This document shows, piece after piece, positions 4,501 to 27,680 of a stretch of DNA of 30,650 nt (within the stretch, counting starts at the first letter, position 1; each line of letters begins with the position of its first letter). The position numbers were made by a program, and so were the translations under genes. Location of the stretch: positions 1 to 30,650 of IMG/VR virus record IMGVR_UViG_3300021957_000187. One strand, written 5' to 3'. The stretch is from a virus. The notes beneath the pieces were generated by a model, which was not told the DNA's origin, ran no database searches, and saw nothing but the letters and a program-made list of their open reading frames with translations.

Positions 4501-7500
4501 AACCCGATGGTGAATTTGAACTTGCAGACGCTGTTGACTTCAGACCCGTACTAGGACAACTAATTGGAACGACTACATTTAGTTCAAGTGCACCTAATCC
4601 CGATAGTCCTGTTAATATCAGTAACACAAGTTCGGGTATTGTATCATCACCATTTGCCTTTATTAATAAGTCATTTGAAGCATCGGTTTCAGGAATTTCA
4701 TCAACAGGTGCTAGTGCAGTAGACGTACCAGTCCCAGGCAGTAACATGGTTGGTGACATCTCATTCTATGTTGGAAGAATCGATAAAATCTTCCTTCATA
4801 AAGACGGTGGGTTCCAAATTTCGCAAGGGACTCCTTCATTGACTCCTATGAAACCAAAAGGAATTGATGATGCTATTGAACTATTTGAGTTAAGAATACC
4901 CCCCTTTACTTCAGACTTGAAGAAAGTAAGATTAAGAAGTGTAGACCACAGAAGGTTTACCATGAAAGATATCGGTAAGATATCTAATCGTGTTGCTAAC
5001 CTAGAAAGATTGACAACACTATCTCTATTAGAAAGAGATACATCAACAATGCAATTCCAAGATGCAGACGGTTTCGATAGATACAAGTCGGGGTTTGTTG
5101 TGGATTCATTTAAAGGACACAATGTCGGGGACGTTACTCATCTCGATTACAATTGTTCAATCGATACAAAACAAGGCGTACTAAGACCTAAGAACTTCCA
5201 AAACTTCTTTGATATAGAACTAGACACAGTTAACAGTCTAAATTATCAGAAAACTGGAGACTTAATAACATTACCTTACTCAAGTTTAAGTTATGTAAAT
5301 CAGTCTAAAGCATCACGTGCACTTAATGTTAACCCATATCACGTATTTGCTTTTATTGGAACCGTAAAACTAAACCCTGCTACTGATATTTGGCAAGACC
5401 AAACACAGTTACCCGAAGTAAGAATTAACAGAGAAGGTAATTTTGATGCTCTGTTAGCAGAGAGTGGTGATTTAGGAACGGTATGGAATGCATGGCAGAC
5501 TACATGGACAGGTGAACCTACAACTGTATCCACGGAAGTTTTATCAACTTCTAGTGGTTCATGGAGTGGAGACCCCTCTCAAGGTGGTGAATGGATTTCA
5601 GGTACTGAAGTATCAAGAGAAATTACAAATACTATTGAAACACAAAGCAGAACGGGTATTAGAACAACTGTAGTCGAAGATTTTGTAGAAGATAGAAACG
5701 ACAGAGTTGTTAGCATGTCTGTTATCCCGTGGATACGTGCACAGACAATTGAGATAGATGCAACAAACTTGAAGCCAGGTTCATGGCACTTTATATACTT
5801 TGATGGTAAAGATGTTAACAGATACGTAAGACCATTCAATACAAACTATTCTCAAGATGGTGGAACAACAGCATCGTCAGGAATTAAAGCAGATGGTAAT
5901 GGTAGAGTTCGTGCATACTTTGATTTACCCAACAATGGTGTAGAAAGATTTGCTACAGGACAAAGAGATTTAAAGGTTACTTCATCACTTTATAATGAAT
6001 CTAACCCATCTTCTCAAGGTGTTGCACAATTTAGTGCACAAGGTTTATTGCAGTCTAACCAAACAGAAATTATTTCTACAAGAAATGGTAGAACAGTACA
6101 AACATCAACAAGCAGTAATCGTCAGATAACAAGGCGTGGTGAGGCAATGAATGCCCAAAACGTCAACACTGACCCAACACCGTTTCCGTTGCCAGAACCA
6201 CCACCAGCAGCTCCAGTTGTGGTTCCACCAGCGCCACCACAACCACCCGAACCATTACCAGCACCGCCACCGCCTGAACCAACTATTCCTAGTGCGGAAT
6301 GGCCATTTAGGTCTGTAGTAATCGATACAGGTATGGGCATAGGCGGCTTTGAATGGGACTTCATCGGTGAAAGCTTTGCGTGGACTGACCCATTAGCACA
6401 ATCATTCTTAGTAGACAAGCCTGGTGGCATGTTTATGACTGAGGTAGACTTATACTTTAAGACTAAAGATGAGAGTTTACCTGTATCTGTGGAAATCAGA
6501 AACATGGTAAACGGATACCCAGGCCAGATAGTGTTCCCATTCTCAGAGGTTTCTAAGAATCCTGCTGATGTTAACCTATCTCAAGATGGTTCATCTGTAA
6601 CAACCTTTACATTCCCAAGTCCAGTATTCTTGGAAGAAAATGAAGAGTATTGTTTTGTAGTCTTGTCAAACTCTGATAAGTACGAAGCATTCATTTCAAG
6701 AATGGGTGAAACAGACTTAATCACTGGTCAAACAATATCAGGACAACCATACGCTGGTTCATTGTTCTTATCACAGAACGCATCAACATGGACTGCTGAA
6801 CAAACCGATGACCTTAAGTTTAATCTTAAGTATGCTAGTTTTGATACATCTAAAACTCCAGTTGTTAAATTTAACAATAAACCATTGCCTACTTCACCCC
6901 TACAAAGCAATCCAATTGAATCATACACTGGTCAAAATTATGTGAGAGTATACTCTTACGGACATGGTATGTACGATAATAATTCTAACGCTGTAATCTC
7001 AGGTGTGACAGGAGAAATTTCAGGCGGAGTAATTAATATCGAAGCAATCAGTGCAGTAGCTACAACAGGTACATTGGTTGATGGTTCATATGTAGACCAA
7101 GCCACCACAACAGGTGGTTCGGGTACAGGTTGTACCTTAGATATTACTGTATCTTCGGGTGCAATATCTTCACTTAAGATTTCAAATCCTGGCTTTGGAT
7201 ACGCCTCAAGTGATACACTTGTAATGACTAACTTAGGTGGAACAAATCAATTTAGTGTAGATATAGATACCGTAGACCAAACAATTGGTGGTATTCCAGT
7301 ATCATGTATTAATGGAACTTATACTGCTATATCAAACTTTGATATTGACAGTTACACAGTCATACCCGACTTATCGAGCACAGACCTCAAAACAGGTTAT
7401 GTTGCTTTACAAAGTACGCAGAGTGGTGGAACGGAAGTATCTGTTCAGAGAAACTATTACTTTGACACGATTCATACAATGATTCCAAGTGTTCAATTAA

Positions 7501-8210
7501 AGGGAACATTGTTGCATACAAATATCAGAACAACCGCAATGAAATCACCAGGCGGTGTTGGTGGAACTCCATACAGTAAAACAAATACTGCAGAGTTTAT
7601 CACGCTGAATGACAACCACTTCTTAAACCAACCAGCGATTGTTGCTTCAACAATCAACGAAACAAATGAAATGTCATCTGTAAAATCATTCACTTGTACT
7701 CTACAGATGCAATCACCAAGAGCGAACCTTTCGCCAATAGTTGATGTTTCATCAATTGGTGCATTGGGTATCATGAACAGGTTGAACATGATTGATAGTA
7801 ACTCAGACGTACCCACAGGAATCACATTTGTTGATTCTACGGAACCCGATGGTGACAATAATGCATTTGTATACTGTACAAGGAAAGTATCTCTGGCTAC
7901 ACCAGGCACCGCTGTGAAGGTCATGTTAGACGCATTTAGACCTGCTAATACAAATATTAAACTTCTTTACAAGGTTTTAGAGAATGATAATTCAACACCG
8001 TTTGATGACATTGGATGGAACTATTTTAATGGAACTGGGTTGCCAGACATTGCAGTTGGTGAAGACGCTAGAAACTTTAAGGAATATAATTACACGATTG
8101 AGGGTATTGCGGAATTTTCTGCATTTGCAATTAAAATTGTAGGACAATCCAATAACTCAACTGCGGTTCCATTAGTAAGTAACTTAAGGGCGATTGCACT
8201 AGCAACGTAA
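1515..8210 (+). CDS. Giant DUF4815-type baseplate/tail structural protein
   Basis: A 2231-residue virion protein of the DUF4815 type found in T4-like marine phages. The N-terminus has the hallmark PYHDDYDEDKKYHKVLYRP followed by RELTQAQSILQNQIERFGDH. Further family blocks are FTRGFFVKV (about 195), AGKGYVKGYEV (about 353) and ADAVDFRPVLGQL (about 1003). A short predicted coiled coil (KISNRVANLERL) lies near 1155-1170. A proline-rich hinge at about 1554-1590 (nt 6175-6290) separates this half from a second one starting DPLAQSFLVDKPGGMFMTEVDLYF. That half holds a Gly-rich beta module (nt about 7010-7290) like the insertion in gp8. A weak AAAGAGA ribosome site (1500-1506) precedes the ATG. By position it replaces T4 gp9/gp10, between wedge and fibres; the exact structural role is inferred. 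Confidence 0.85.
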   Translation: MPEKVDLNVSPYHDDYDEDKKYHKVLYRPSRPIQARELTQAQSILQNQIERFGDHMFKEGSIVTGGESNCDMDVRYVKVSSTNPNSLGTVGVENYRASFDTKYLQGKTSGVVAQVVTSYAESTDDPVTYIVRYYIAGTDSVNSGSFLAGEDLQEVTIDANGNAVSAANTQELQILSADKTPIGRSSLAEIQEGVIFTRGFFVKVNKQQITLEKYSGAPSFRIGLQVSETLVGSAVDATLFDNAQGSSNENAAGADRLKVELTLEKQLIDSVTDSNFIELMRVNKGRMELSIQRPEYNAFQSLMARRTFDTSGDFIVRQFLPNLKEHLDDGTNGGVYSTLNGGQENQFVVNVSAGKGYVKGYEVDKPVGSTIPIKKARNVATLTGASTSIRLGNFIKVTNSHGIPEFGNEAGTDAQAPYNVVKLFDGTMTSGAENSTGHIGYARIRNYDMATAGTSNSSEVWDDTTRFNAYLFDIKMFTKLKYSAHSGTAIIGDKVTGSVSGATGLIAYDDNSGALYVHDVIGVFSISDAISSQNGSFAMTIAQNTGENFRGTAGEIRTYNINRVRGISQTPKTTAREVFTANVYLDADFTLTGQCSISTTNLTGFATKFTAELKEGDVIIDGAGAEKIIASITSDTAAVLTNSAASISNTKVTRRVTRVFDQEQTAAIYAWPRDWVKTHTPDQVQVRRSQNVTISNTSITLTIGSAESFSTRTNDNYNFAVVEAQTSGSPTLANGDMIDVVNNLSGAPFTDTINGNNLEISGFQSADNGTILKVTYTVDINSPVNRDKSLKQARCLSVVNSRATGGFYGTCYNDRDITLGVADCYKVRAVYEGNGSTAPKPPSATITETASPPVAFQSFEVIKGNTSDARAIIINYNGSSNKSYFYYITQQKFTEGEVIIGQSSTAVGEATNVDAGATNITNRYYFDNGQRDGFYDHGKLVLKPGTPTPNAQIIVVFDYFTATGNGDFFDVNSYSGIEYKDIPRYVPSKVDLGGLEPDGEFELADAVDFRPVLGQLIGTTTFSSSAPNPDSPVNISNTSSGIVSSPFAFINKSFEASVSGISSTGASAVDVPVPGSNMVGDISFYVGRIDKIFLHKDGGFQISQGTPSLTPMKPKGIDDAIELFELRIPPFTSDLKKVRLRSVDHRRFTMKDIGKISNRVANLERLTTLSLLERDTSTMQFQDADGFDRYKSGFVVDSFKGHNVGDVTHLDYNCSIDTKQGVLRPKNFQNFFDIELDTVNSLNYQKTGDLITLPYSSLSYVNQSKASRALNVNPYHVFAFIGTVKLNPATDIWQDQTQLPEVRINREGNFDALLAESGDLGTVWNAWQTTWTGEPTTVSTEVLSTSSGSWSGDPSQGGEWISGTEVSREITNTIETQSRTGIRTTVVEDFVEDRNDRVVSMSVIPWIRAQTIEIDATNLKPGSWHFIYFDGKDVNRYVRPFNTNYSQDGGTTASSGIKADGNGRVRAYFDLPNNGVERFATGQRDLKVTSSLYNESNPSSQGVAQFSAQGLLQSNQTEIISTRNGRTVQTSTSSNRQITRRGEAMNAQNVNTDPTPFPLPEPPPAAPVVVPPAPPQPPEPLPAPPPPEPTIPSAEWPFRSVVIDTGMGIGGFEWDFIGESFAWTDPLAQSFLVDKPGGMFMTEVDLYFKTKDESLPVSVEIRNMVNGYPGQIVFPFSEVSKNPADVNLSQDGSSVTTFTFPSPVFLEENEEYCFVVLSNSDKYEAFISRMGETDLITGQTISGQPYAGSLFLSQNASTWTAEQTDDLKFNLKYASFDTSKTPVVKFNNKPLPTSPLQSNPIESYTGQNYVRVYSYGHGMYDNNSNAVISGVTGEISGGVINIEAISAVATTGTLVDGSYVDQATTTGGSGTGCTLDITVSSGAISSLKISNPGFGYASSDTLVMTNLGGTNQFSVDIDTVDQTIGGIPVSCINGTYTAISNFDIDSYTVIPDLSSTDLKTGYVALQSTQSGGTEVSVQRNYYFDTIHTMIPSVQLKGTLLHTNIRTTAMKSPGGVGGTPYSKTNTAEFITLNDNHFLNQPAIVASTINETNEMSSVKSFTCTLQMQSPRANLSPIVDVSSIGALGIMNRLNMIDSNSDVPTGITFVDSTEPDGDNNAFVYCTRKVSLATPGTAVKVMLDAFRPANTNIKLLYKVLENDNSTPFDDIGWNYFNGTGLPDIAVGEDARNFKEYNYTIEGIAEFSAFAIKIVGQSNNSTAVPLVSNLRAIALAT

Positions 8211-10047: not shown

Positions 10048-11574
10048 ATGGCAGACGAAATTTATATAAACACCAAGAACGCCCAGCATAGTCAGGAAGG
10101 AAACCTAGGGCCGACAGGAACGTTTCAACAAGCTTATCAAGGACAAAGGCCTGCTACAGGTAGGTTACAGGTTCAACGAGTAGTAAGTGGTCAAACACCA
10201 TTTACGTATCAAAACCCGTATCCTTTTACATACCCTGCTAGTGCTCGTGGAAGATACCCTTTTTCGTATCAAAATCCATACCCGTTTACAACCCCTGCCA
10301 GCGCACAAGGTAGATATCCTTTTTCGTATCAAAACCCGTATCCTTTTACTTACCCTGCCAGCGCACAAGGTAGATATCCGTTTACGTATCAGGCATCATA
10401 TAGAACGCCAGGCACTTATCAGGCAAGATATCCATTTATCTATCAAGCAAATGCTCAGGGTAGATATCCTTTCACGTATCAAGCAAATGCTCGTGGGAGA
10501 ACTCAAGCAACTTATCCGTTTACGTATCCTGCTAACATACAAGGTAGATATCCGTTTACGTATCCCGCTAACGCTTCAGGAAGTTATATAGCAAGATATC
10601 CTTTTACGTATCCTGCTAACGCACAAACTACCGTTGTTGCTCGTGCTCAGGCACCCTATCCCTATATCATAGGGGGAGTAACACAACAACCTTTTGTAGG
10701 CGGTCAGTTTAAGGGGAGTTATTTCCCACCTTTCCGTCTTCCATCGACTGGAACTGCAGCTCAAGGTCGTGCTCAGGCACCAGCTGTTCAAACCCAAACT
10801 GGGGGTAGAATTCCCGAAAATGGGTTCAGACAGATACAGGTGGGTGGCAGGCCAGATGAACCATTTTATCAACCGTATACTTTCCAACAACCAGTTGGTT
10901 CAGGTACACAAACACAGTTTACACAGCAACCGTCTACTTATCAGAACAATGCTCGAGGTACAACACCAGCGTCATATCCTTTCACGTATCAAGCAAATGC
11001 TAGGGGAAGATATCCTTTCACGTATCAAGCAAATGCGACTGGTCGATATCAAGTAAGGTATCCTTTTACATACCCTGCTAACGCTCGTGGAAGATACCCG
11101 TTTACATATTCTGCTAGCGGCCGAGGTAGATATCCTGCTAACTCACAAACTCCAGGCACATATCCTGCCAGCGCACAGGGAAGATATCCTTTCACGTATC
11201 AAAACAATGATACGGGTACATATCCTGCCAGCGCACAAGGTAGATATCCATTTATCTATCAAAACAACATCACAGGTACGTATCCTGCCAGCGCACAAGG
11301 TAGATATCCATATATTTACCAAGCTAATTCAACAGGAACTTACCCTGCTAATGCACAACAAGCGTATCCGTTCCAACAGAACTATCAGAACCCGTATCCG
11401 TTCCAACAGAACTATGCAACAACTAGAAACATTGGTGCAGCTGCTAAAGCAAAAGCGGTATACGTGAATGATGCTGGAACTTTGAGAAAGTTACAAGAAG
11501 TCTATGTAAACAATCAAGGACAGATGGAAAAAATTCACCAAACTGTTCCTGTAGCGCAGTTTAATAAAGGTTAA
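10048..11574 (+). CDS. Tyr/Pro-rich repeat protein 1 (putative virion adhesin)
   Basis: A 508-residue low-complexity protein with two blocks of short repeats such as RYPFTYPANAQG, RYPFTYQANARG and TYPASAQG (nt about 10190-10660 and 10925-11415). In the blocks Tyr/Phe fall on even positions counted from each TY start, Pro on odd positions, and unit lengths are even (8, 12, 16, 18). A non-repetitive segment of about 90 residues between the blocks contains GGQFKGSYFPPFRLP. The N-terminus is MADEIYINTKN. The C-terminus has the paired module VYVNDAGTLRKLQEVYVNNQG, typical of phage tail proteins. It is paralogous to the gene at 17967. There is no signal peptide or membrane helix. Its place among fibre genes suggests an exposed virion component. 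I know no named family for it and do not claim a biochemical function. Confidence 0.7.
   Translation: MADEIYINTKNAQHSQEGNLGPTGTFQQAYQGQRPATGRLQVQRVVSGQTPFTYQNPYPFTYPASARGRYPFSYQNPYPFTTPASAQGRYPFSYQNPYPFTYPASAQGRYPFTYQASYRTPGTYQARYPFIYQANAQGRYPFTYQANARGRTQATYPFTYPANIQGRYPFTYPANASGSYIARYPFTYPANAQTTVVARAQAPYPYIIGGVTQQPFVGGQFKGSYFPPFRLPSTGTAAQGRAQAPAVQTQTGGRIPENGFRQIQVGGRPDEPFYQPYTFQQPVGSGTQTQFTQQPSTYQNNARGTTPASYPFTYQANARGRYPFTYQANATGRYQVRYPFTYPANARGRYPFTYSASGRGRYPANSQTPGTYPASAQGRYPFTYQNNDTGTYPASAQGRYPFIYQNNITGTYPASAQGRYPYIYQANSTGTYPANAQQAYPFQQNYQNPYPFQQNYATTRNIGAAAKAKAVYVNDAGTLRKLQEVYVNNQGQMEKIHQTVPVAQFNKG
10190..10660 (+). repeat. Coding tandem repeat block 1 of Tyr/Pro protein 1
   Basis: Imperfect tandem DNA repeats encoding YPFTY/PANAQ units. 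Recurring blocks are GGTAGATATCC, TTTTACGTATC and CCTGCTAACGC. Unit lengths at DNA level are multiples of 6 nt (mostly 24, 36 or 48), which keeps the two-residue register of the protein. Confidence 0.85.
10925..11415 (+). repeat. Coding tandem repeat block 2 of Tyr/Pro protein 1
   Basis: Second block of the same repeats after a unique centre. CATATCCTGCCAGCGCACA recurs near 11160 and 11220 and closely related copies follow. The end of the block (11377-11415) is identical over 39 nt to part of the paralogous gene (19398-19436). Confidence 0.85.
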
Positions 11575-15536: not shown

Positions 15537-17942
15537 GTGGCTGCAAAGAATTTTCATGTAAAAAACGGACTAAGCATTGGTGTAACCGAGGTTATCAATA
15601 GCGCTGGTCTGATTCAAACAGCTGCACTAGGAAGTGATTTTAACGAAAAGGTCGATGACAGAGTCAATGCACTATTGGTTGCTGGTACTGGAATTTCGAC
15701 AACATATGATGATAGTGCAGGCACATTAACAATCAACGGACAAGTCGGTGACGTAACTAGCGTAGTAGCTGGTGACGGTTTATCGGGTGGTGGAACTTCA
15801 GGTGATGTAACAGTATCACTTAACTCTTCAGTTGCTGGAGACGGTCTTGCCCATTCAAGTGGTGTAGTATCTCTAGACCTAAACGAATTAACCGCAGCTG
15901 CGGTTGATGTTGCAAACGATAGTGTTGCAATCATAGACGCAACCGATAATACTTCTAAGAAAGAAACAATTGCTGATATAGTAACTGGTATAGCAGGAAC
16001 AGGTATTTCTGCTACAAACGGTGTCCTTGCTACAAACTCTATATCACACTTTGACACTGGCGATTTATCAGAAAGCGGAAACCTCTATTATACAGATGCA
16101 CGTGCAAGAGCAGCTCTTTCGGTATCGGGTGACCTTGCATACAACAGTTCAACAGGTGTTATCTCATTTACAAACGATGCTGGTGACATAGAGTCAGTAG
16201 TTGCTGGTGCTGGTTTAACAGGTGGTGGAACTTCAGGTGACGTTACTTTAAACTTAGACGCAACAGTCGCTGGTGATGGACTTGCACACTCAAGTGGTGT
16301 TCTTTCCGTAACAGTAGATGACAGTTCAATCGAAACAGATTCAGACACACTAAGAGTCAAAGCGAGTGGTATTACTAATGCCATGTTGGGTGGTTCAATT
16401 GCAAATGATAAACTTGCAAATAGTTCAATCACAGTTAACTCTACTGCAACTGCATTAGGTGGTTCAGTAACATTAGATACAGGTGACATTTCCGAAAATG
16501 GAAACCTTTATCATACAACAGAAAGAGTTCAAGACGTAGTTGGTGCCTTTGTATCGGGTGCGGGTTCAACAACAGTAACTTACGATGACTCCGCTGGAAC
16601 AATGGTAGTTTCTTCAACAGGTAAAACTACAGAAGAGATTCAAGATATTGTTGGTGGAATGGTATCCTCAAATACCGAAAGTGGTATTACAGTCGCATAC
16701 GAAGACGGTGATGGGACAATAGACTTTACAGTCGGAACACTTAACCAAGATACAACTGGTTCCGCAGCTACTTTAACAACTCCAAGAACAATTCATGGTG
16801 TATCATTTGATGGTAGTGCAAATATTGACCTATCAGAAGTAGTTCAAGACACAGTAGGTGCAATGTTCAGTTCAAACACTGAAACAGGAATTAGTGCAAC
16901 TTACGAAGATGGTGATGGAACAATCGACCTAGTCGTTGGAACTCTTAACCAAAGTACAACAGGAAATGCCGCTACAGCGACTGCATTAGAAACCGCAAGA
17001 ACAATCAATGGAGTTTCTTTTGACGGAACAGGTAACATAACAACCTTAACAGCGGGAACAGGTGTTGGAGTTTCGGGAACAGAAGTCTCAATCGGACAGG
17101 CAGTTTCAACTTCAAGTAATGTTCAATTTGGAAACTTAGTTCTTTCAGGCGACTTAACAGTTAATGGTTCAACAGTAACCAACTCTTCAACAAATACAAC
17201 AATCGAAGATGGATTGATTGAATTAGGAACAGGAACAACTGGAACCCCAGCAAACGATACAGGTTTTGTTATCGAAAGGGGTGACCTTGCAAATGCATTT
17301 ATAGGTTTTGACGAAAGTGCAGATAAATTTACAATGGGTACTGGTACATTTACTGGTGCATCAACAGGTAACTTATCAGTCACTACAGGAACTTTAGTTG
17401 CGAATCTTGAAGGAAACGTAACAGGTAATGTTACAGGTAACTTAACTGGTAACAGTGCAGGCGTACATACAGGTAACGTAACAGGTGATGTAACAGGTAA
17501 TGTAACAGGTAACGTAACAGGAAATACTTCGGGTACTTCGGGTTCAACAACTGGTAATGCCGCTACAGCGACTGCATTAGCTACTGCTAGAACCATAGGT
17601 GGTACATCTTTTGATGGTACTGCAAATATAGCAGTAGGATTAGCAGCTACTGCCACAACATTAGCAACCGCAAGAACAATTAATGGAGTTTCTTTTGACG
17701 GTAGTGCAAACGTAACAACCCTTACAGCAGGAACAGGTGTATCCGTATCGGGAACAGCAGTATCTATAGGTCAGGCAGTTTCAACTTCAAGTAACGTAAC
17801 TTTTGGAACTCTGGCAAGTGGTGCACACACAATTACAAACGCAACCAATGCTGGTGGAACTGCGAGGAATGTATATCAATCAACTTCTGCCCCTACGGGT
17901 GGAGCTGGTGCGGTTGGCGATTTATGGATTTTATACTCTTAA
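15537..17942 (+). CDS. Tail fibre-like protein D (long repeat fibre)
   Basis: An 801-residue modular fibre starting with GTG (supported by GGAGG 8 nt upstream). The N-terminus AAKNFHVKNGLSIGVTEVI is a fibre start. Two copies of SVVAG(D/A)GL(S/T)GGGTSGDVT plus SVAGDGLAHSSGV-type blocks lie near residues 72-115 and 221-265. NLYYTDARARAALSVSGDLAY near 183 and two copies of the VSSNTESGITVAYEDGDGTID / FSSNTETGISATYEDGDGTID block follow. A module beginning LTVNGSTVTNSS near 540 is shared with fibre B. Residues about 624-668 are (T-G-N-V/L) repeats. The end APTGGAGAVGDLW resembles fibre A's. The many near-identical copies suggest growth by internal duplication. Likely a long or side fibre shaft; the receptor-binding part is not identifiable. 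Confidence 0.75.
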   Translation: MAAKNFHVKNGLSIGVTEVINSAGLIQTAALGSDFNEKVDDRVNALLVAGTGISTTYDDSAGTLTINGQVGDVTSVVAGDGLSGGGTSGDVTVSLNSSVAGDGLAHSSGVVSLDLNELTAAAVDVANDSVAIIDATDNTSKKETIADIVTGIAGTGISATNGVLATNSISHFDTGDLSESGNLYYTDARARAALSVSGDLAYNSSTGVISFTNDAGDIESVVAGAGLTGGGTSGDVTLNLDATVAGDGLAHSSGVLSVTVDDSSIETDSDTLRVKASGITNAMLGGSIANDKLANSSITVNSTATALGGSVTLDTGDISENGNLYHTTERVQDVVGAFVSGAGSTTVTYDDSAGTMVVSSTGKTTEEIQDIVGGMVSSNTESGITVAYEDGDGTIDFTVGTLNQDTTGSAATLTTPRTIHGVSFDGSANIDLSEVVQDTVGAMFSSNTETGISATYEDGDGTIDLVVGTLNQSTTGNAATATALETARTINGVSFDGTGNITTLTAGTGVGVSGTEVSIGQAVSTSSNVQFGNLVLSGDLTVNGSTVTNSSTNTTIEDGLIELGTGTTGTPANDTGFVIERGDLANAFIGFDESADKFTMGTGTFTGASTGNLSVTTGTLVANLEGNVTGNVTGNLTGNSAGVHTGNVTGDVTGNVTGNVTGNTSGTSGSTTGNAATATALATARTIGGTSFDGTANIAVGLAATATTLATARTINGVSFDGSANVTTLTAGTGVSVSGTAVSIGQAVSTSSNVTFGTLASGAHTITNATNAGGTARNVYQSTSAPTGGAGAVGDLWILYS
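17410..17530 (+). repeat. 12-nt coding repeats (TGNV) in fibre D
   Basis: Tandem copies of GGTAACGTAACA-like 12-mers encode TGNVTGN stretches. The run has several near-exact copies, interrupted once by an AGVH segment. Confidence 0.85.
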
Positions 17943-17966: not shown

Positions 17967-19562
17967 ATGGCTTCAGGCTCTCAAAAGGTCAAAACACCTA
18001 CAGGCTGGAATGCAACACAAGGTGCATGGGTAAAAACTCCCGATGGTTGGCGTGCGGTAGAACAAATCTACATTAAGACTCCTACTGGATGGAATAACGC
18101 TAGTGGACAGGAGACTACACAACAACCTTCTAGAAGACCCGCAACAGGAAGACTCCAAGCACAGAGACCAGCTACTGGAACAACCCCTGCCCGAAGACCA
18201 GCAACAGGAAGACTCCAAGCACAGAGACCAGCGACAGGACAAACGCCATATCCTGCTAACGCACAGACGCCAGGCACATATCCTGCCAACGCACAACAAC
18301 CTTATCCTGCTAACGCACAGACGCCAGGCACATATCCTGCCAACGCAAGACAGCCTGGAACTTACCAAACGCCATACAGAACTCCGTCTACGTATCAAGC
18401 AAGATACCCGTTTACATACCCTGCTAATTCGCAATCACCGTTTACGTATCAAGCAAGATACCCGTTTACATACCCTGCTAATTCACAAGCACCGTTTACG
18501 TATCAAGCAAGATATCCTTTTACATATCCAGCTTCTTACAGATACCCAAGTACATATCAAGCAAGATATCCATTTACGTATCAAGCACCAACAACTTATC
18601 GGGCAAGATACCCCGCTAATACAACGTACCCTGCTAACTTCAATGCGCCAGGCACGTATCCTGCTAATACAACGTACCCTGCTAACTTCAATGCGCCAGG
18701 CACGTATCCCGCTAATACAACGTATCCTGCTAATACAACTTACCCTGCTAATGCAAGGCAACCAGCAACGTATACCTATATTGGACAGCTGCCTGTAGCT
18801 TTCCAATTTAAAGGAGCTCCCAGTGTGGGACGAGTTCCTTCGCCTCTAATTGGCAACACACGGAATCCGTTCACGTATCAAGCGCCAACGACCTATCAAG
18901 CGCCAACGACCTATCAGTCAGCATATAGGTTCCCAAGTACGTATCAAGCACCAACGACCTATCAGGCATCATATAGGTTCCCAAGTACGTATCAAGCACC
19001 AACGACCTATCGTGCGAGATATCCAGCTAATACAACGTATCCAGCAAATGCTCGTGGAACATATCCTGCTAACTTTAGAGTACCCGCAGCTTATCAAGCA
19101 AGTGCTCGTGGAAGATACCCTGCTAACGCAAGACAACCTGGCACGTATCAGAACAATGCTAGAGGAAGATATCCAGCGAACGCAAGACAACCTGGCACGT
19201 ATCAGGCAAATGCTAGAGGAAGATATCCTGCTAACGCACAAACTCCTGGCACGTACCCTGCTAGTTATCAGACGCCATTTACGTATCAGGCTAATTACAG
19301 AACTCCGTCTATCTATCAGGCGAGGTCTCCGTTCACTTATCAGAATAACTATAGGACTCCGTCCACGTATCAGGCGCAACAACCTTATCCGTATCAGCAG
19401 AACTATCAGAACCCGTATCCGTTCCAACAGAACTATCAGAACCCGTATCCGTATCAGCAGAACTATCAGAACCCATACCCGTTCCAACAGGCTTATCAAC
19501 ATGCTGTACAAAGATGGGATGGAGTTTTACAACAACAGTGGCCCGCAACTCCTATTTCTTAG
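17967..19562 (+). CDS. Tyr/Pro-rich repeat protein 2 (putative virion adhesin)
   Basis: A 531-residue paralogue of the protein at 10048. The N-terminus carries three Trp modules (VKTPTGWN, VKTPDGWRAVEQIY, IKTPTGWN), a pattern known from phage tail proteins. Then comes an RRPATGRLQAQ repeat (present once in protein 1). Next are Tyr/Pro units such as TYPANAQTPG, TYQARYPF, TYQAPT and TYRARYPANT. Unit lengths are even (6, 8, 10, 12, 18), with aromatics at even and Pro at odd positions. A short unique centre (IGQLPVAFQFKGAPSVG) shares QFKG with protein 1. The C-terminus is Gln/Asn/Tyr-rich (QQNYQNPYPF copies) and ends VLQQQWPATPIS. AGGA at 17954-17957 precedes the ATG. It is the last gene before a terminator and the modification-type enzymes. 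Surface exposure and adhesion are inferred. Confidence 0.7.
   Translation: MASGSQKVKTPTGWNATQGAWVKTPDGWRAVEQIYIKTPTGWNNASGQETTQQPSRRPATGRLQAQRPATGTTPARRPATGRLQAQRPATGQTPYPANAQTPGTYPANAQQPYPANAQTPGTYPANARQPGTYQTPYRTPSTYQARYPFTYPANSQSPFTYQARYPFTYPANSQAPFTYQARYPFTYPASYRYPSTYQARYPFTYQAPTTYRARYPANTTYPANFNAPGTYPANTTYPANFNAPGTYPANTTYPANTTYPANARQPATYTYIGQLPVAFQFKGAPSVGRVPSPLIGNTRNPFTYQAPTTYQAPTTYQSAYRFPSTYQAPTTYQASYRFPSTYQAPTTYRARYPANTTYPANARGTYPANFRVPAAYQASARGRYPANARQPGTYQNNARGRYPANARQPGTYQANARGRYPANAQTPGTYPASYQTPFTYQANYRTPSIYQARSPFTYQNNYRTPSTYQAQQPYPYQQNYQNPYPFQQNYQNPYPYQQNYQNPYPFQQAYQHAVQRWDGVLQQQWPATPIS
18115..18775 (+). repeat. Coding tandem repeat block 1 of Tyr/Pro protein 2
   Basis: Imperfect repeats including two near-identical AATACAACGTACCCTGCTAA units (about 18617-18720) and CAAGCAAGATACCCGTTTAC units. 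Steps are multiples of 6 nt (18, 24, 30). Confidence 0.85.
18860..19500 (+). repeat. Coding tandem repeat block 2 of Tyr/Pro protein 2
   Basis: Repeats built from CAAGCGCCAACGACCTAT, CGCAAGACAACCTGGCACGT and CAGAACTATCAGAACCCGTA. It shares a 39-nt identical stretch (19398-19436) with the first Tyr/Pro gene. Confidence 0.85.
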
Positions 19563-19567
19563 TGACT

Positions 19568-19596
19568 AAATACTAGAACAAATCTAGTATTTTATT
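19568..19596 (+). terminator. Hairpin terminator after the fibre cassette
   Basis: AAATACTAGA (19568-19577) pairs perfectly with TCTAGTATTT (19583-19592) over a 5-nt loop and is followed by TATT. The 10-bp stem is AU-rich and the U-tract is short and broken, so termination may be partial. It lies 6 nt after the stop of repeat protein 2. Confidence 0.65.
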
Positions 19597-19606
19597 ATGG
19601 AGTATT

Positions 19607-21178
19607 ATGGAACATTTGAGTAAACCTCAGCAGGCCCATTCGGCACTGAGACCTAAATCACAACCCGAATATGATAGTATGGGTTTCAACCCTATGCGTC
19701 TTGATTGGACTAGCGAGAGTCCACGTTCACAGATATTTTACAAGGGTGGTCACTACATGGGTGAAATACCTATTTGGGCCGATGGTAGTATCGACACCAC
19801 CTGTAATACATTCAAAAACGCCAAACGTCTTATGGAAGAAGTCTATGTACCCACTTGTAAATTAGTTACTTGGGGTGACTTAAAAAAATCTAAGAAGATA
19901 GATTTGAATAGATTCTCATTAGATTATCAAGCTTCAGGGTACTTGAAATATATACCCGACTTCCACTCTACTGGCGGTTCAATGCAAAGAGAGGAAACTG
20001 TAACAGGTAGAAAGATAGGTGGAAAGGGTGAAGATAGGGACGAGGTTGGGTCAACATTTTATCATGGGTGTAAGGGACATTGGTTACTCCATGATGTAAA
20101 AAAGAATGGTCTAAATCAACCCATTCAAGGCGTCATATTTAAAAGTCATATAGATGATGAGTATAATATTCACATACATCCTGGCTCAGTTAGACAAGGT
20201 GTATTTGGTATGGTGGATGATGATGACAACGAGTTAATCATTTGGGATGCATATAATGCCTTTGATGAGATTGACCCCCTTCCTATAGAAGACTGGATGA
20301 AAATATTTGCTAGACCTCAATTTGATGGTCAAATACCTACGTGTATGAATTTAGTATACAGTTATACTCATCTTGAAATACAAGTTAGTGGTGCGTGGAA
20401 AGATGAAAAGGAAGACATGGATGTCAATTGGAGAGCTAAGGTTACAGAATTTTCCAAGAAAGTATCTAAAAAGTTTAATGGGAAACCATTGAATATTTAC
20501 ATTGGGTATGATTCTAGACATGAGGGTATAGAAGATATACAAATAGAATCTATACAAAAGGCAATGTCTAAAACTATCAAAAAAGAACCCGCTATTAAAT
20601 TTGTTCCCGAATTCAAATTGCTTGACATTTCAAAGATTCCCGAATATACTAGAGAATATGGTAATCAATCTACTGAGTTTACATACAGTAGATTTCTAAT
20701 CCCGTACTTAGAGAATTATGAAGGGTTTAGTATGTTTATAGATAACGATTTTATATGGAAGAGACCTTTGTGGGAAATGTTCTACTTTCTACACCCCGAT
20801 AATGCTGTAGCATGTGTTCAATATGAACATGAACTGGAAAAGATGTCTACAACTAAAATGGGTGGTGAGAAGAATGTAATGTATCCGAAAAAACTATGGT
20901 CTAGTTTCATGGTATTCAATAACAGTCACGAAGACTGTAAAAAACTAACTCCCGATATTATTAATACGGAAAGCGGTGAATACTTACATCAATTTAAATG
21001 GACTGATAAGATTGACCGCATCCCCGATAAATACATTTTAACAGAGGGGATGTCCGATGACGATAAACGTCATCACGCTGTACACTATACAAGAGGTGGC
21101 CCATGGATAGAGGGTATGGATTGCAGTGAAATCAAACACCTAGAGTTGTATAACACTTTTTTAGACAACAATAAATAA
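19607..21178 (+). CDS. GT8-like glycosyltransferase with extra N-terminal domain
   Basis: A 523-residue putative two-domain protein. The C-terminal half (about 294-515) looks like a GT-A fold glycosyltransferase of the GT8 type. It begins LNIYIGYDSRHEG, has FTYSRFLIPYLENYEG, and a DxD metal/sugar-nucleotide motif D379-N380-D381 in FIDNDF. WSSFMVFNN (431-439) and the closing HYTRGGPW (493-500) correspond to the conserved GT8 end. The N-terminal half is different: HGCKGHWLLHDVKKNG (153-168) followed by IHIHPGSVRQGVF (188-200) resembles the ParB/sulfiredoxin-like layout seen in phage proteins. That assignment is weaker. GGAG lies 4 nt before the ATG. It opens the auxiliary enzyme operon. Substrate is unknown; a virion protein, a host glycan or DNA are all possible. 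Confidence 0.7.
   Translation: MEHLSKPQQAHSALRPKSQPEYDSMGFNPMRLDWTSESPRSQIFYKGGHYMGEIPIWADGSIDTTCNTFKNAKRLMEEVYVPTCKLVTWGDLKKSKKIDLNRFSLDYQASGYLKYIPDFHSTGGSMQREETVTGRKIGGKGEDRDEVGSTFYHGCKGHWLLHDVKKNGLNQPIQGVIFKSHIDDEYNIHIHPGSVRQGVFGMVDDDDNELIIWDAYNAFDEIDPLPIEDWMKIFARPQFDGQIPTCMNLVYSYTHLEIQVSGAWKDEKEDMDVNWRAKVTEFSKKVSKKFNGKPLNIYIGYDSRHEGIEDIQIESIQKAMSKTIKKEPAIKFVPEFKLLDISKIPEYTREYGNQSTEFTYSRFLIPYLENYEGFSMFIDNDFIWKRPLWEMFYFLHPDNAVACVQYEHELEKMSTTKMGGEKNVMYPKKLWSSFMVFNNSHEDCKKLTPDIINTESGEYLHQFKWTDKIDRIPDKYILTEGMSDDDKRHHAVHYTRGGPWIEGMDCSEIKHLELYNTFLDNNK
21170..21177 (+). promoter_or_regulatory. Possible late promoter AATAAATA
   Basis: nATAAATA match overlapping the stop of the glycosyltransferase gene. 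The expected start is near 21183, only about 14 nt before ATG 21197, and the GAGAGGA ribosome site (21182-21188) lies at its edge. The sequence also encodes Asn-Lys-stop, so chance is possible. Confidence 0.4.
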
Positions 21179-21196
21179 TTCGAGAGGAAATATATT

Positions 21197-21754
21197 ATGA
21201 ATGCTTTAATTTTTACTGAAGATAACAATCTTCACATCACTCAACAAAATGGGTTGAGATATAACTACGACAACGTTTCTAAACCTAATCTTGGTTTTGA
21301 TTTTGATGTTATCATCTATGATAACAGAGATGAGTATAAGGTTGTTAACTATGATGATTCTAAATCATTTGACCAACAGAATAGGGAACCGCTTACTGAC
21401 ACTGACAGAGATGCCATTGAAAATTTTATAACAAATTCAGAACCACCACAAGGTGTATCTTTAGCAGACCAACATTGTGGAGACCTTCAGAGTTACGTTG
21501 ATGACATGGTTAATGATATGTGTGGTCAGTATCGTTTTAATGATTTGACTCAAGTTGTTTATGCTGGAAGAGAAGGGTCAAACCATCCCTTTAGGTCTGA
21601 TGCAAGACGGGTTATGGAATATGCAGACGCTACATATGGTATATTTTTTCAAGTGGTGAATGAAATCCAATCAACAAGAGAAGACCATATTAAAGATTTT
21701 GAATCTTACTCAAATCAAATACCAACTCCAATAACTAATAACAGTTTGTCTTAA
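21197..21754 (+). CDS. Conserved-looking phage protein, unknown function
   Basis: A 185-residue acidic protein without membrane segments. The first 60 residues look beta-rich (ALIFTEDNNLHITQ, FDVIIYDNRDEYKVV). The C-terminal part is helical, with FRSDARRVMEYADATYG and EIQSTREDHIKDFESY. That helical end faintly recalls tail-fibre assembly or DUF4376-type proteins of phages, but I cannot assign it. GAGAGGA (21182-21188) precedes the ATG. Its stop overlaps the next start by one base (TAATG), tying it to the oxygenase downstream. It could be a chaperone or partner for the enzymes or the fibre proteins. Confidence 0.6.
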   Translation: MNALIFTEDNNLHITQQNGLRYNYDNVSKPNLGFDFDVIIYDNRDEYKVVNYDDSKSFDQQNREPLTDTDRDAIENFITNSEPPQGVSLADQHCGDLQSYVDDMVNDMCGQYRFNDLTQVVYAGREGSNHPFRSDARRVMEYADATYGIFFQVVNEIQSTREDHIKDFESYSNQIPTPITNNSLS

Positions 21755-22533
21755 TGGAAATTGTCTATCATGATTCGCCCTTTAAGTTGTCGAACGACAA
21801 CTATCCATTTGGTAAAGGTAACGAGGCAACGATTCATGTGGTAGATAATTACTTAGAACCGCATCTTTGGCATTGGTGGGATAAAAAGTTAATTGAGTCA
21901 TGTGTTTGGTCAAAAACAAATCAAGTTGGTAGTGATAGTAAAACAGGATTACCCCATCATAGTTTTTGGGGCGGTACATTTTTTAATTCGATGTTTACCG
22001 ATGGCCCAGAACTAAACGTTCCCGAATATACAGAAAATACGTATACATACTTTCCCCGATATTTCGACCAAAGAGTTAGAACAGACTTTGGGTTTGAATG
22101 GGTCAACTATGATTATATGGGATTGAATAGTCAAACACAAGGTCTTGATGGTACAAACCACACAGATTGTGCAGAGGATGCTGATTGGAATTTATCATTT
22201 TTATTTTACTTAAATACGTTTTGGAATCCATCGTGGGGTGGAGATTTAAGAATGTATGACACCAATGAAGGTGGGGGTAGAAATGATTCACAAGACAAGT
22301 ATGAGATAGGAAGGATTGAGTTTAAACCAAACAGACTGTTATTATTTGATGGTAGAACACCTCATGGTGCAGAGGCTCCAACTGCAGCTGCTAAATATGT
22401 AGATAGACGGTCATTGGTTCATCGTGGAACTGAAATAAGATTTGCTGATAAAGAAGATACATATATGCCAAACGTAGAAAAGAAACTAAACTTTAATCGA
22501 TACGCTGTACAAAAGCATTTTGGGGAGTGGTAA
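21754..22533 (+). CDS. 2OG-Fe(II) oxygenase, prolyl 4-hydroxylase-like
   Basis: A 259-residue 2-oxoglutarate/Fe(II)-dependent dioxygenase with a double-stranded beta-helix core. The iron facial triad is visible: H136-x-D138 in TNHTDCAED and H204 in RTPHGAEAP. The 2-oxoglutarate-binding Arg is probably R219 in DRRSLVHR. WNPSWGGDLRMY (157-168) and FKPNRLLLFDG (190-200) match the prolyl 4-hydroxylase-type pattern of gain-of-strand before the distal His. Such enzymes hydroxylate Pro or other residues in proteins; some act on small molecules. It is coupled by TAATG to both neighbours. Candidate substrates are the Pro-rich repeat proteins upstream; this is inference. The active site appears intact. 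Confidence 0.8.
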   Translation: MEIVYHDSPFKLSNDNYPFGKGNEATIHVVDNYLEPHLWHWWDKKLIESCVWSKTNQVGSDSKTGLPHHSFWGGTFFNSMFTDGPELNVPEYTENTYTYFPRYFDQRVRTDFGFEWVNYDYMGLNSQTQGLDGTNHTDCAEDADWNLSFLFYLNTFWNPSWGGDLRMYDTNEGGGRNDSQDKYEIGRIEFKPNRLLLFDGRTPHGAEAPTAAAKYVDRRSLVHRGTEIRFADKEDTYMPNVEKKLNFNRYAVQKHFGEW

Positions 22534-23477
22534 TGCCTACTATTACTTTTAGTTCGTTTGAAACCGAATCCTTTGAAACACTAAGACCTGTACCTTCAAA
22601 TAAAATGCAACCCGACTGGTGGAAGAAATCAAAGGTACATGCAATTCAAAATGGAGTCGCCACTATAACTCTAAGGTCATGTCCTGCCATGCATGATTGG
22701 TTAGCAACAGGTTATTATATTGCAACTAGCACTGACATAGAGTGTATCTACGATGATAATAGAAACGCTTGGCATACACGGACTCCAGCTTCTAAGTCCA
22801 CGATGGAGTTTAAAAACCAAACTTCACCAACCCATGATAAAGCACAATTGATGAAGGACAACTTTTCATTTATTATAAATGATGAGGAGAGTTCAAACAT
22901 GGATGCATTTAAGTTTAGAGTACCTTGGAGAGTGGAAACTCCGCCAGGATATTCATGTCTTTACTTAGACCCCTTTTTGCACCAAAATAAATGGTTTAGG
23001 ACATGGCAAGGTGTGATGGATACGGATATGTTTAATACACAGACTGACAATCAGCAAGTCATAGTTTATCCTCTTGTAAAAAAATCTTTTGTAATTCCTA
23101 AAGATACACCAATTGTACAGATAGTTCCATACAGAAGAGAAGAGTGGGTAGCATCATATATACATAGGGATTTTTCATCAGCAATAACAGAGAATGACCA
23201 TAGAACTTCAGTTTACGGAAAACAACCAATATCAGAACATTGTAGAATAGAAGGAGTAGAGGACTCAGCCGACAATCAAATTCCAGGCGGGTTCTATAGA
23301 AAATATATGTGGGAAAATAAAGTAAAGGATTTCAAAGACGCTCCTAAAGATGAGTGCCCATTTGACCCAAAAACGGGGAAGATGAAAGAAGATTTTAAAG
23401 AAAAACAACAAGACTTGACTGAATTGAACGGAGACGGCAATCGGGATAGGGGGAGATACGGGGAAGATGGCCGTTAG
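22533..23477 (+). CDS. Cupin-like conserved phage protein (DUF6065-like)
   Basis: About 314 residues. I choose ATG 22533, which overlaps the upstream stop as TAATG and has GGGGAG (22522-22527) at good spacing; a GTG two codons upstream (22527) is the longer alternative. Blocks are PDWWKKSKVHAI, TLRSCPAMHDWLATGYYI, FKFRVPWRVETPPGYSCLYL, WQGVMDTDMF and a PIVQIVPYRREEW end. From memory this layout resembles DUF6065, a small beta-barrel-like family of unknown function often near 2OG oxygenases in phages. The C-terminal 60 residues are charged and low in complexity (KTGKMKEDFKEKQQD), probably disordered. It overlaps the next gene by 11 nt. Sitting between two oxygenases, it is probably part of the same pathway. 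Confidence 0.6.
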   Translation: MPTITFSSFETESFETLRPVPSNKMQPDWWKKSKVHAIQNGVATITLRSCPAMHDWLATGYYIATSTDIECIYDDNRNAWHTRTPASKSTMEFKNQTSPTHDKAQLMKDNFSFIINDEESSNMDAFKFRVPWRVETPPGYSCLYLDPFLHQNKWFRTWQGVMDTDMFNTQTDNQQVIVYPLVKKSFVIPKDTPIVQIVPYRREEWVASYIHRDFSSAITENDHRTSVYGKQPISEHCRIEGVEDSADNQIPGGFYRKYMWENKVKDFKDAPKDECPFDPKTGKMKEDFKEKQQDLTELNGDGNRDRGRYGEDGR

Positions 23478-24210
23478 ATTATTGTTTCCAACATATGTAT
23501 TCCATAGGAATTTTCTAGACCCAAATCTAGATGAATCCCAAGGGTACGATTTGGAATATGCAGAGATGTTAGTGAATGAAGTTGACGAAATGCGAAAGCG
23601 TGACCCTATAGGCAGAAACGTATCTAACTCAACAAGTCCTACAGAAAGTTATCAATCGGGTTGGCAGTCAAACGATGGTTGCGAATCCAATGCTATTTTT
23701 CAAAAATGTATGAATCGTATAAGTAGATTTTTTCAAGATGAGGTTCTACCCTTCCATGGAATACATGATAGTAGTGGGATGAAAATGAAAGCAGGAAACT
23801 CATGGGCAAATGTTAACGAAAAGGGGTCTTTCAATAGACCTCACACGCATAACGGTTGCTGGTATTCAGGCGTTTTATACTTAAAAGCAGATGGAGATGA
23901 GGGATGTTTTGTAGCAACTGATACTGACCAAAAGGTGTTATCGATGTTTCCTCACCATCAAAGAGTTAGAGGTGACATGGCACTTCAACCTAAAACAGGA
24001 GATATACATTTATTTCCTAGTGGGTTGTTACACATGGTTGAACCCAACTACACAGATAAATCTAGATATAGCATATCATTTAATATGGACATGGAAAGTG
24101 TATTAAGCAATCAAGGTAAAGGCAACTTTGGTCAAGATTTTTCCGACCCCAATTATGACAATGATGAGTTCGTATTTAATATAGATGAAAGAGGTAACCC
24201 AATACGCTAA
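23467..24210 (+). CDS. 2OG-Fe(II) oxygenase, TIGR02466-like
   Basis: A 247-residue oxygenase of the type annotated in marine phages as putative 2OG-Fe(II) oxygenase (TIGR02466 / 2OG-FeII_Oxy_5). The start VRLLFPTYVFHRNF is typical. The core has NSWANVNEKGSFNRPHTHNG (H126-x-H128) before YSGVLYLKA, then GDIHLFPSGLLHMVEPN (distal H189) and RYSISFNM with R200 as candidate 2-oxoglutarate ligand. The usual D of HxD is not evident in the H-T-H stretch, so metal ligation differs from the first oxygenase. GGGGAAG precedes the ATG inside the upstream gene. Substrate is unknown. Confidence 0.8.
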   Translation: MAVRLLFPTYVFHRNFLDPNLDESQGYDLEYAEMLVNEVDEMRKRDPIGRNVSNSTSPTESYQSGWQSNDGCESNAIFQKCMNRISRFFQDEVLPFHGIHDSSGMKMKAGNSWANVNEKGSFNRPHTHNGCWYSGVLYLKADGDEGCFVATDTDQKVLSMFPHHQRVRGDMALQPKTGDIHLFPSGLLHMVEPNYTDKSRYSISFNMDMESVLSNQGKGNFGQDFSDPNYDNDEFVFNIDERGNPIR

Positions 24211-24213
24211 TTT

Positions 24214-24221
24214 CATAAATA
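24214..24221 (+). promoter_or_regulatory. Late promoter CATAAATA
   Basis: nATAAATA match exactly 5 nt (GATTT) before ATG 24227, the same spacing as at 11579. There is no ribosome site between it and the ATG. Confidence 0.6.
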
Positions 24222-24226
24222 GATTT

Positions 24227-24496
24227 ATGGAATCAGAAATTATCTCAATAGACGCAGGCATGATATGGAACATCGTATTGACCTTTATTTTAGCCCCAAT
24301 GGGATTTTTAGTACGTTCTGTGTTATCAGAACAGAAACGTATTGATATCCTAATAAACAAAACACGTGAAGAAGTCGCTAAAGACTATGTTACACGTGAA
24401 CAACTTGGGAAAGAGTTGGAAAGATTGTCTGATACATTAGACAGAATTGATAATAAGTTGGATAGACTACAATCTAAGACTTACTTCCAAGAATAA
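24227..24496 (+). CDS. Small membrane-anchored coiled-coil protein
   Basis: An 89-residue protein from ATG 24227. An in-frame ATG at 24185 inside the oxygenase gene would add 14 residues but lies upstream of the late promoter at 24214. One hydrophobic segment (MIWNIVLTFILAPMGFLV, about 12-29) is followed by a charged helical region (QKRIDILINKTREEV, LSDTLDRIDNKLDRL) that should form a coiled coil. Comparable short proteins sit beside neck genes in T4-like cyanophages, by recollection; function is unknown. One transmembrane helix plus coiled coil could fit a membrane anchor or lysis accessory, but no lysis gene accompanies it. No ribosome site is present. Confidence 0.7.
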   Translation: MESEIISIDAGMIWNIVLTFILAPMGFLVRSVLSEQKRIDILINKTREEVAKDYVTREQLGKELERLSDTLDRIDNKLDRLQSKTYFQE

Positions 24497-24532: not shown

Positions 24533-25348
24533 ATGGCCGCACCAAATTCTAAAGACACTTTCAAGCAGTATATCAAGCGTGCTCTTGGAGCTCCAGTTAT
24601 AGAAATCAATATTGATGATGACCAACTGGACGATAGAGTAGACGAAGCATTACAATACTTCCGTGAATACCACTATGATGGGAGTATAAAGACTTATCTG
24701 AAACATCAAGTTAGTGCTAATGATATTATTGGTATGAAAACTAATGAGTCATTTACAGAAAGTGCAGCTGGTACACACGCAAAGACAGACCAAGAATATA
24801 AACAACAACAGAACTATATTGTACTGCCAGAGTTTGTTCTTTCAGTCATAAACATCTTCCCATTCGCAGATAAAAGCAATTTAAACATGTTTGATATTAG
24901 ATATCAATTAAGATTGAATGATATCTATGACCTAACAAACACAAGCATTCTTTATTACTCACAGGTACAACAACATATTTCAATGTTAGACCAAATGTTA
25001 GTAGGTCAAACTCCAATTAGATACAACACTCATATGAACAGATTGTATCTTGATATGGATGCAGATAAAATAAATGCTGGCGAATACATCATTGTTGAGT
25101 GTTATAGAAAACTAGACCCGACTGATTTCACAGACATATATAATGACATGTGGTTAAAAAGATATGCAACCGCATTAGTCAAATATCAGTGGGGACAAAA
25201 CCTTTCAAAGTTTGGTGGTATCGCATTGCCAGGCGGAGTGACATTAGAACCCGATAATATTAAGTCAGAAGCACTAGAAGAAAAAACTAGATTAGAAGAA
25301 GAATCAAGATTGAATTATGAGATGCCTGTCTTAGATATGATGGGGTAA
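24533..25348 (+). CDS. gp13: Neck protein gp13
   Basis: A 271-residue homologue of T4 gp13, which with gp14 completes the head and forms the neck to which the tail binds. Family features are the start DTFKQYIKRALGAPVIEINID, RVDEALQYFREYHYDGS, YIVLPEFVLSVINIFPF, and the late TDIYNDMWLKRYATALVKYQWGQNLSKF followed by PGGVTLE. It is slightly shorter than T4 gp13 (309). It begins the neck-packaging operon under its own late promoter and is 6 nt from gp14. Confidence 0.9.
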   Translation: MAAPNSKDTFKQYIKRALGAPVIEINIDDDQLDDRVDEALQYFREYHYDGSIKTYLKHQVSANDIIGMKTNESFTESAAGTHAKTDQEYKQQQNYIVLPEFVLSVINIFPFADKSNLNMFDIRYQLRLNDIYDLTNTSILYYSQVQQHISMLDQMLVGQTPIRYNTHMNRLYLDMDADKINAGEYIIVECYRKLDPTDFTDIYNDMWLKRYATALVKYQWGQNLSKFGGIALPGGVTLEPDNIKSEALEEKTRLEEESRLNYEMPVLDMMG

Positions 25349-27254: not shown

Positions 27255-27680
27255 ATGCCAAAAGATATAGACAACAAGTTGAATGACTTACTAGACATTA
27301 ATTCGTCTATTAAAAAGGAAACTAAAGCTGTTCCTATGGTTAAGGAGAGACCTGTAACCGATAGGACTGCAAACATTGAGACCGACTATAAGTACGCAAG
27401 AGAACACCTCTACGACCTCATAGAACGAGGCCAGGACGCTATAGATGGTATCCTAGACCTATCCAAAGAGTCTGAACATCCACGTGCCTACGAGGTTGCT
27501 GGACAGCTAATTAAGACCGTAGGTGAGACTGCAGAAAAGTTAATCGACTTGCAACAGAAGATGAAGAAGTTGGAAGACAATGATGAAAAAATTAGAGACC
27601 AACATAATCATTTATATGTTGGGTCTACAAGTGAATTACAAAAGTTTTTGAAGAAGAGTAATGGTTCAAGCAAGGAATGA
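27255..27680 (+). CDS. gp16: Small terminase subunit gp16
   Basis: A 141-residue homologue of T4 gp16 (164), the DNA-recognition and regulatory subunit of the packaging motor. The body is helical: DYKYAREHLYDLIERGQDAI, DGILDLSKESEHPRAYEVAG, then a long coiled-coil helix QLIKTVGETAEKLIDLQQKM. This is the expected central oligomerisation region. The C-terminus is short. Its end overlaps the large terminase start by 20 nt, so both subunits are co-translated. Confidence 0.85.
   Translation: MPKDIDNKLNDLLDINSSIKKETKAVPMVKERPVTDRTANIETDYKYAREHLYDLIERGQDAIDGILDLSKESEHPRAYEVAGQLIKTVGETAEKLIDLQQKMKKLEDNDEKIRDQHNHLYVGSTSELQKFLKKSNGSSKE

Follow-up and report, generated by a model that had tools for sequence, protein, structure and literature searches.

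Positions 17967-24210 of the IMG/VR fragment IMGVR_UViG_3300021957_000187, a 30,650-nt stretch of DNA from an uncultured marine T4-like phage (hereafter the window), hold a conserved block of + strand genes in which a Pro/Tyr repeat protein (REP2) is followed by a GT8-like glycosyltransferase (GT), a prolyl 4-hydroxylase-like (P4H-like) 2-oxoglutarate (2OG)-Fe(II) oxygenase, a second 2OG-Fe(II) oxygenase (OX2) and the conserved proteins o185 and o316. We put at about even the proposition that this block is a phage protein-modification cassette whose main substrates are REP2 and REP1, a further Pro/Tyr repeat protein of this kind encoded upstream in the window. The case is built, at the level of sequence, on the genes and families present, the intact active sites of the enzymes, purifying selection, a strict linkage to the repeat protein and a two-face register in the repeats themselves.

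An earlier note on this DNA had set co-occurrence of the enzymes and the repeats in related genomes as a check beforehand, and the outcome favors the linkage it proposed. Searches with the P4H-like protein, GT, the N-terminus of REP2 and the repeats supplied the relatives, and the merging of overlapping or identical pieces left 214 sequences, some of which may still be near-identical contigs recovered from separate samples. The P4H-like gene is present in 143 of these sequences; upstream sequence extends for 4.5 kb or more in 110 of them, and a Pro/Tyr-rich repeat open reading frame (ORF) lies within 5 kb in 110/110. The 16 P4H loci with no repeat ORF in view all have less than 2.5 kb of upstream sequence. 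For an independent sample, loci were gathered by the gp13-like protein alone, with the clade defined as at least 65% identity to gp13 of the window and at least 6 kb upstream. The cassette is present in 15/15 of these clade loci and a repeat protein in 14/15; at the fifteenth locus, L473, four of the five enzymes are visible and only 6.0 kb of upstream sequence is available. By comparison, none of 13 outgroup gp13 loci with equal upstream room carries three or more of the enzymes (0/13) or a repeat protein (0/13), and the C48C1-like outgroup has no cassette and no register-conforming repeat. ORFs from C48C1 and a few other outgroup sequences had been flagged by a Pro/Tyr composition filter and were dismissed by the register test described below and by reading of the sequences. 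A DNA pattern drawn from the repeats only recovered 79 new loci, with register-conforming repeat ORFs in 78 and cassette enzymes in 48; no enzyme is seen in the other 30 pieces, but further markers of the lineage are present on most of them, and a good many are short or break off close to the repeat. In the relatives examined, the gene immediately before GT encodes REP, and no member lacks half of the block where the sequence suffices. From the P4H, gp13 and repeat-DNA samples, the linkage is therefore strict yet confined to one lineage, which is represented by well over a hundred contigs.

Of the 531 amino acids (aa) of REP2, 77 are Pro and 67 are Tyr, and REP1 and REP2 together contain 133 Pro and 127 Tyr. 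REP2 has a conserved N-terminal segment, KTPxGW, and a conserved C-terminal RWDGVLQQQWPATPIS; the protein matches no Pfam family at an E-value of 0.1 and no PHROG family. Its Pro and Tyr residues follow a two-residue register, with Pro-Pro spacings even in 98.5% of cases, Tyr-Tyr even in 100% and Pro-Tyr odd in 100%, and REP1 has the same register. Across 285 repeat proteins of the clade, the distance from one Pro to the next is even in 96.6% of cases and from one Tyr to the next in 97.6%, and that between neighboring Pro and Tyr is odd in 98.5%; shuffling the same proteins gives 46%, 46% and 57%, respectively. The register is thus beyond chance, and autocorrelation agrees with it, odd lags reaching 0.05-0.19 of expectation. 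One face of the repeat is preferred by Pro, Ile, Asp, Gln, Arg, Asn and Thr and the opposite face by Tyr, Phe, His, Val, Ala and Gly. This suggests an amphipathic chain of extended beta type, in which the aromatics would be packed while Pro and the polar residues face outward. Such an arrangement would favor Pro (and Thr/Asn) over Tyr as the accessible site.

The repeats had previously been described as containing many X-Pro-Gly sites in a collagen-type prolyl hydroxylase context, and this description does not hold. Pro-Gly accounts for 8/77 Pro in REP2, 2/56 in REP1 and ~4% of Pro clade-wide; the X-Pro-Gly context is rare and unconserved, and the period is two residues, not three. A collagen-like protein of Gly-X-Y triplets with a three-residue period was considered and ruled out on the same two grounds. 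A tblastn search of REP2 against isolate phages gave no match, although the low-complexity filter hides repeats in such a search; the repeats were therefore sought with peptide and DNA-pattern scans specific to them. REP1 and REP2 are probably long extended fibers or whiskers on the virion, and the gene following REP1 is tail-fiber-assembly-like (phrog_3304/phrog_1084). Neither Pfam nor PHROGs includes the REP family, which appears to represent a new extended fiber architecture.

REP2 is split into two proteins in many relatives. In a few of these, the first half terminates in a Hint/intein splicing domain (PF14890, best value 1.2e-11; L176:10001-11305, L182:10001-11488, L105:303-2090 and L252:1020-2522), a motif present in 6/117 complete N-type REP ORFs. 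Self-cleavage or ligation of the fiber by this domain is possible.

The P4H-like protein passes the Pfam cut-off for 2OG-FeII_Oxy_3 (PF13640) with 39.7 versus 27 bits (9.7e-10), and this family is matched in 61/61 members. The iron-binding triad H136, D138 and H204, which the earlier note had reported as intact, and R218 are invariant in 63/63 diverse members; triad, arginine and profile together place the protein in the 2OG-Fe(II) oxygenase superfamily. In a profile search of the PDB the best solved match was 6t8m (3.4e-5), followed by matches with weak E-values of 0.05-1, namely the HIF PHD TaPHD, EGLN1 and TPA1. Nearly all of these are prolyl hydroxylases, and by this profile peptidyl-prolyl hydroxylases are the closest known relatives of the phage protein. 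The 6T8M structure is Dictyostelium DdPhyA, which hydroxylates a prolyl residue of Skp1, the product then being glycosylated (PMC7864055).

The C-terminal domain of GT has a GT-A fold and is GT8-like. Residues D379 and D381 (D379-N-D381) and H493..GGPW500 are invariant, as are the catalytic residues of the cassette enzymes in general across about 60 divergent members, and the GT8 profile (PF01501) matches 38/62 GT members, with a best value of 7.2e-6. An AlphaFold2 model built from 62 sequences reached a mean confidence (pLDDT) of 86, replacing an earlier 10-sequence model (pLDDT 48.6). Fold matches to the model include LARGE1, LgtC (GT8), UGGT, LH3, mimivirus R699 and the PBCV-1 capsid GT, and also take in GT6 and GT24; the model thus places the enzyme among the GT-A transferases. 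The suggestion of glycogenin-type Tyr glucosylation fares poorly, as the enzyme has no specific similarity to glycogenin beyond a family-level analogy and Tyr occupies the aromatic/apolar face of the repeat. Matches in isolate phages (Mosig and Caulobacter phages) are limited to the GT-A domain, and that of Mosig lies in a different, non-structural gene context. The N-terminal domain of ~270 aa belongs to no family that we recognize. By eye only, this half (19607-20400) shows a GLxQPI...HPGSVR motif (GLNQPIQ...HPGSVRQ in the window) and an order of strands and helices resembling ParB/Srx; no ParB Pfam match was found in the 62 members, and the structure matches listed are all glycosyltransferases.

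OX2 exceeds the cut-offs of TIGR02466 (75.3 versus 62.5) and PF13759 (74.1 versus 27 bits) and has invariant residues H126xH128...H189...R200. Neither o185 nor o316 matches a Pfam family at an E-value of 0.1, and o185 has no PHROG. Distant relatives of o316 occur in haloarchaeal viruses and two cyanophages; these do not help in assigning o316 because they lie near thymidylate synthase or auxiliary genes, without the cassette. In a sister group (L006:4567-5160 and L010:13698-14336) an extra ORF of ~200 aa lies between o316 and OX2 and bears the conserved C-terminal tail of ~30 aa that normally ends o316, at 83-93% identity. Ratios of nonsynonymous to synonymous change (dN/dS), measured against the closest relative, are 0.10-0.33 for all cassette genes, which points to purifying selection on the enzymes. 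In the same comparison, identity is lowest in the region for REP2 (81%) and the tail fiber adjoining it (75%), both with many gaps, versus 90-100% for their neighbors.

The coordinates of the block and its surroundings are collected in Table 1. Genes of T4 type occur in T4 order across the window, from the baseplate wedge through the tail fibers, the gp13-like protein, gp14 and gp15 to the terminase large subunit. The genes that the earlier note had named (repeat protein, GT, P4H-like protein and second oxygenase) are all present at 17967-24210 on the + strand. They are not directly successive as it had stated: o185, between GT and the P4H-like gene, and o316, between the P4H-like gene and OX2, had been overlooked, and both are conserved across relatives. 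The described coupling by overlaps applies from o185 onward only (1, 7 and 11 nt), the gaps being 44 nt between REP2 and GT and 18 nt between GT and o185. REP1 lies outside the range that had been considered. By terminase, the nearest isolate-type records are phage C48C1 (54%) and cyanophages (~45%), and the records opened among these belong to Kyanoviridae. Two close relatives of the block, L351 and L352, are contigs binned into Flavobacteriales metagenome-assembled genomes, a weak hint that marine Flavobacteria are hosts of the lineage.

Table 1. Features of the window, with positions counted from its first nucleotide
Feature	Position	Strand	Remarks
Baseplate wedge	5-1483		
2231-aa protein	1515-8210		phrog_358/877, function unknown; structural module
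REP1	10048..11574	+	Pro/Tyr repeat protein, 508 aa
Tail fiber	15537-17942		fast-evolving; adjoins REP2
REP2	17967..19562	+	Pro/Tyr repeat protein, 531 aa
GT	19607..21178	+	GT8-like glycosyltransferase, 523 aa
o185	21197..21754	+	conserved 185-aa protein, family unknown; cassette member
P4H-like	21754..22533	+	2OG-Fe(II) oxygenase, 259 aa
o316	22527..23477	+	conserved 316-aa protein, phrog_7084, function unknown
OX2	23467..24210	+	second 2OG-Fe(II) oxygenase, PF13759/TIGR02466/phrog_81
o103	24185..24496	+	small conserved gene closing the block, precedes gp13
gp13-like	24533-25348		head-tail adaptor
gp15			sheath stabilizer
Terminase large subunit	at 27661		

In the mechanism that we propose, the cassette would act in the host cytoplasm during late infection. 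The P4H-like oxygenase would hydroxylate prolines lying on the face of the repeats that is polar and exposed, with SPFTYQHRSPFTY and TYPANARQPGTY as examples of candidate substrate peptides, and the GT8-like transferase would then attach a sugar, either at the hydroxyl so formed or at a neighboring Thr/Ser. OX2, o185 and o316 may perform or assist further steps. The decorated fiber, carried on the virion and bearing sugar on hydroxyproline, might gain in stiffness, protease resistance or binding. Of the modification system as first put forward, this retains a conserved cassette tied to a repeat protein and the P4H and GT-A families, and drops the collagen context and the glycogenin-type glucosylation of Tyr.

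Several points weigh against such a system. As all of the evidence for linkage comes from one lineage, shared descent could explain much of the co-occurrence. In a test of partial distance correlations, the values for REP against GT (0.46) and against o316 (0.49) are no higher than that for REP against the unrelated gp15 (0.47). Sequence alone is no proof that a 2OG oxygenase is specific for prolyl residues, and the GT of the window itself has no Pfam match at an E-value of 0.1. An OX2 homolog stands alone directly upstream of gp13, without a repeat protein, in cyanophage-like outgroups (L499, L506, L510 and L528), and OX2 is older than the cassette. For this reason OX2, although present and of the expected family, is the least certain member of the repeat-modifying system to which it had been assigned. 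In PBCV-1, the viral P4H is active, yet hydroxyproline was undetected in its virions (PMC7019647).

An alternative that we judge unlikely, though deserving of weight, is that the cassette targets another virion protein, such as the tail fiber adjoining REP2, or a host surface glycan, the repeats being mere neighbors in a host-interaction island. Tail-fiber genes surround the block, that fiber is as variable as REP2, and OX2 can adjoin gp13 where repeats are absent. The position of REP directly upstream of GT argues for the repeats as substrate instead, and a prolyl-hydroxylase-type enzyme beside a protein of ~14% Pro is the simpler pairing.

It seems improbable that enzymes and repeats are joined by common descent only, the enzymes being unrelated auxiliary genes in a gp13-proximal slot. 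The single lineage fits this, the gp15 control does not decide against it, and the slot does hold other auxiliary genes in cyanophage-like outgroups; in L344:3529-9282, by eye, it contains several 2OG oxygenases and tryptophan-halogenase-like, heme-oxygenase-like and o316-like proteins. Descent alone sits less well with a gene order and content retained over deep divergence (GT identity among members is 37-96%), with enzymes under purifying selection, or with the lack of half-block members where the sequence suffices.

We give little credence to Tyr as the target, by DOPA-like hydroxylation and/or glycogenin-like Tyr-O-glycosylation yielding a cross-linked or sticky fiber. The very high density of Tyr (127 residues in REP1 and REP2 together) and the inclusion of glycogenin in GT8 would suit it, as would the mussel adhesives, in which Mefp-1 decapeptides bear hydroxyproline and plaque proteins bear DOPA (3,4-dihydroxyphenylalanine); known DOPA formation, however, proceeds via tyrosinase and not via 2OG oxygenases (PMC4275877). 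Tyr also lies on the aromatic/apolar face, and the profile neighbors of the P4H-like enzyme are prolyl hydroxylases. Action of that enzyme on a host protein such as EF-Tu for host takeover, in the manner of PPHD, is most improbable: bacterial PPHD (4iw3) is among the weak profile matches and EF-Tu hydroxylation in bacteria has been described (PMC7864055), but the gene lies in the late structural module beside the repeats, not among early genes, and in a tight cassette with GT.

Structural repeat proteins that are first hydroxylated and then glycosylated are known from animals, plants, protists and giant viruses. The proposed modification of REP resembles that of Skp1 in combining a P4H-type oxygenase with a GT8-type transferase in the cytoplasm, and among solved structures the Skp1 hydroxylase PhyA is the one closest to the phage P4H profile. 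In Toxoplasma, a GT8 enzyme (Gat1) closely related to glycogenin adds the final sugar to Skp1 (PMC8724618). However, Skp1 is a globular protein with one modified Pro and several GTs, whereas the phage has tens of Pro in a repeat, one recognized GT and no homologous substrate. In mimivirus (L230 hydroxylase/GT and R699 GT), a virus likewise provides a hydroxylase and a GT-A transferase for its own structural repeat (PMC9546862), but there the hydroxylase acts on lysine, the substrate is Gly-X-Y collagen and the virus is a eukaryotic giant virus. Since the substrate is new and is not collagen, the phage system would work like the Skp1 or mimivirus modification while being a member of neither.

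Other parallels are more partial. PBCV-1 also encodes a small P4H (vCPH), for which we know of no dedicated linked GT/repeat cassette. The mussel Mefp-1 decapeptide contains Lys. Like REP, Mefp-1 is a Pro/Tyr-rich repeat with hydroxylated Pro (PMC4275877), but it is a secreted animal adhesive with DOPA made by tyrosinase and has no homology to REP. T4-like marine phages commonly encode 2OG oxygenases, the cyanophage Syn9 having three P4H-domain genes and some of these phages an OX2-like gene beside gp13. The cyanophage enzymes have been discussed as possible DNA-repair (AlkB-like) enzymes, and we found no repeat/GT linkage for them.

The titles and abstracts of the few papers found in the literature searched describe no such system in a phage. 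Tentatively, and with less confidence than we place in the cassette itself, the block may represent the first phage pathway of hydroxylation-dependent glycosylation, in which a P4H-type and a GT8-like enzyme would furnish a new class of virion fiber with sugars that are hydroxyproline-linked or hydroxylation-primed. If so, this strategy arose in tailed phages too, in a compact version that operates in bacteria, and the cassette would offer a small, expressible system for making hydroxylated, glycosylated fiber proteins in bacteria. The REP family would be an apparent new fiber architecture of an uncultured marine phage lineage.

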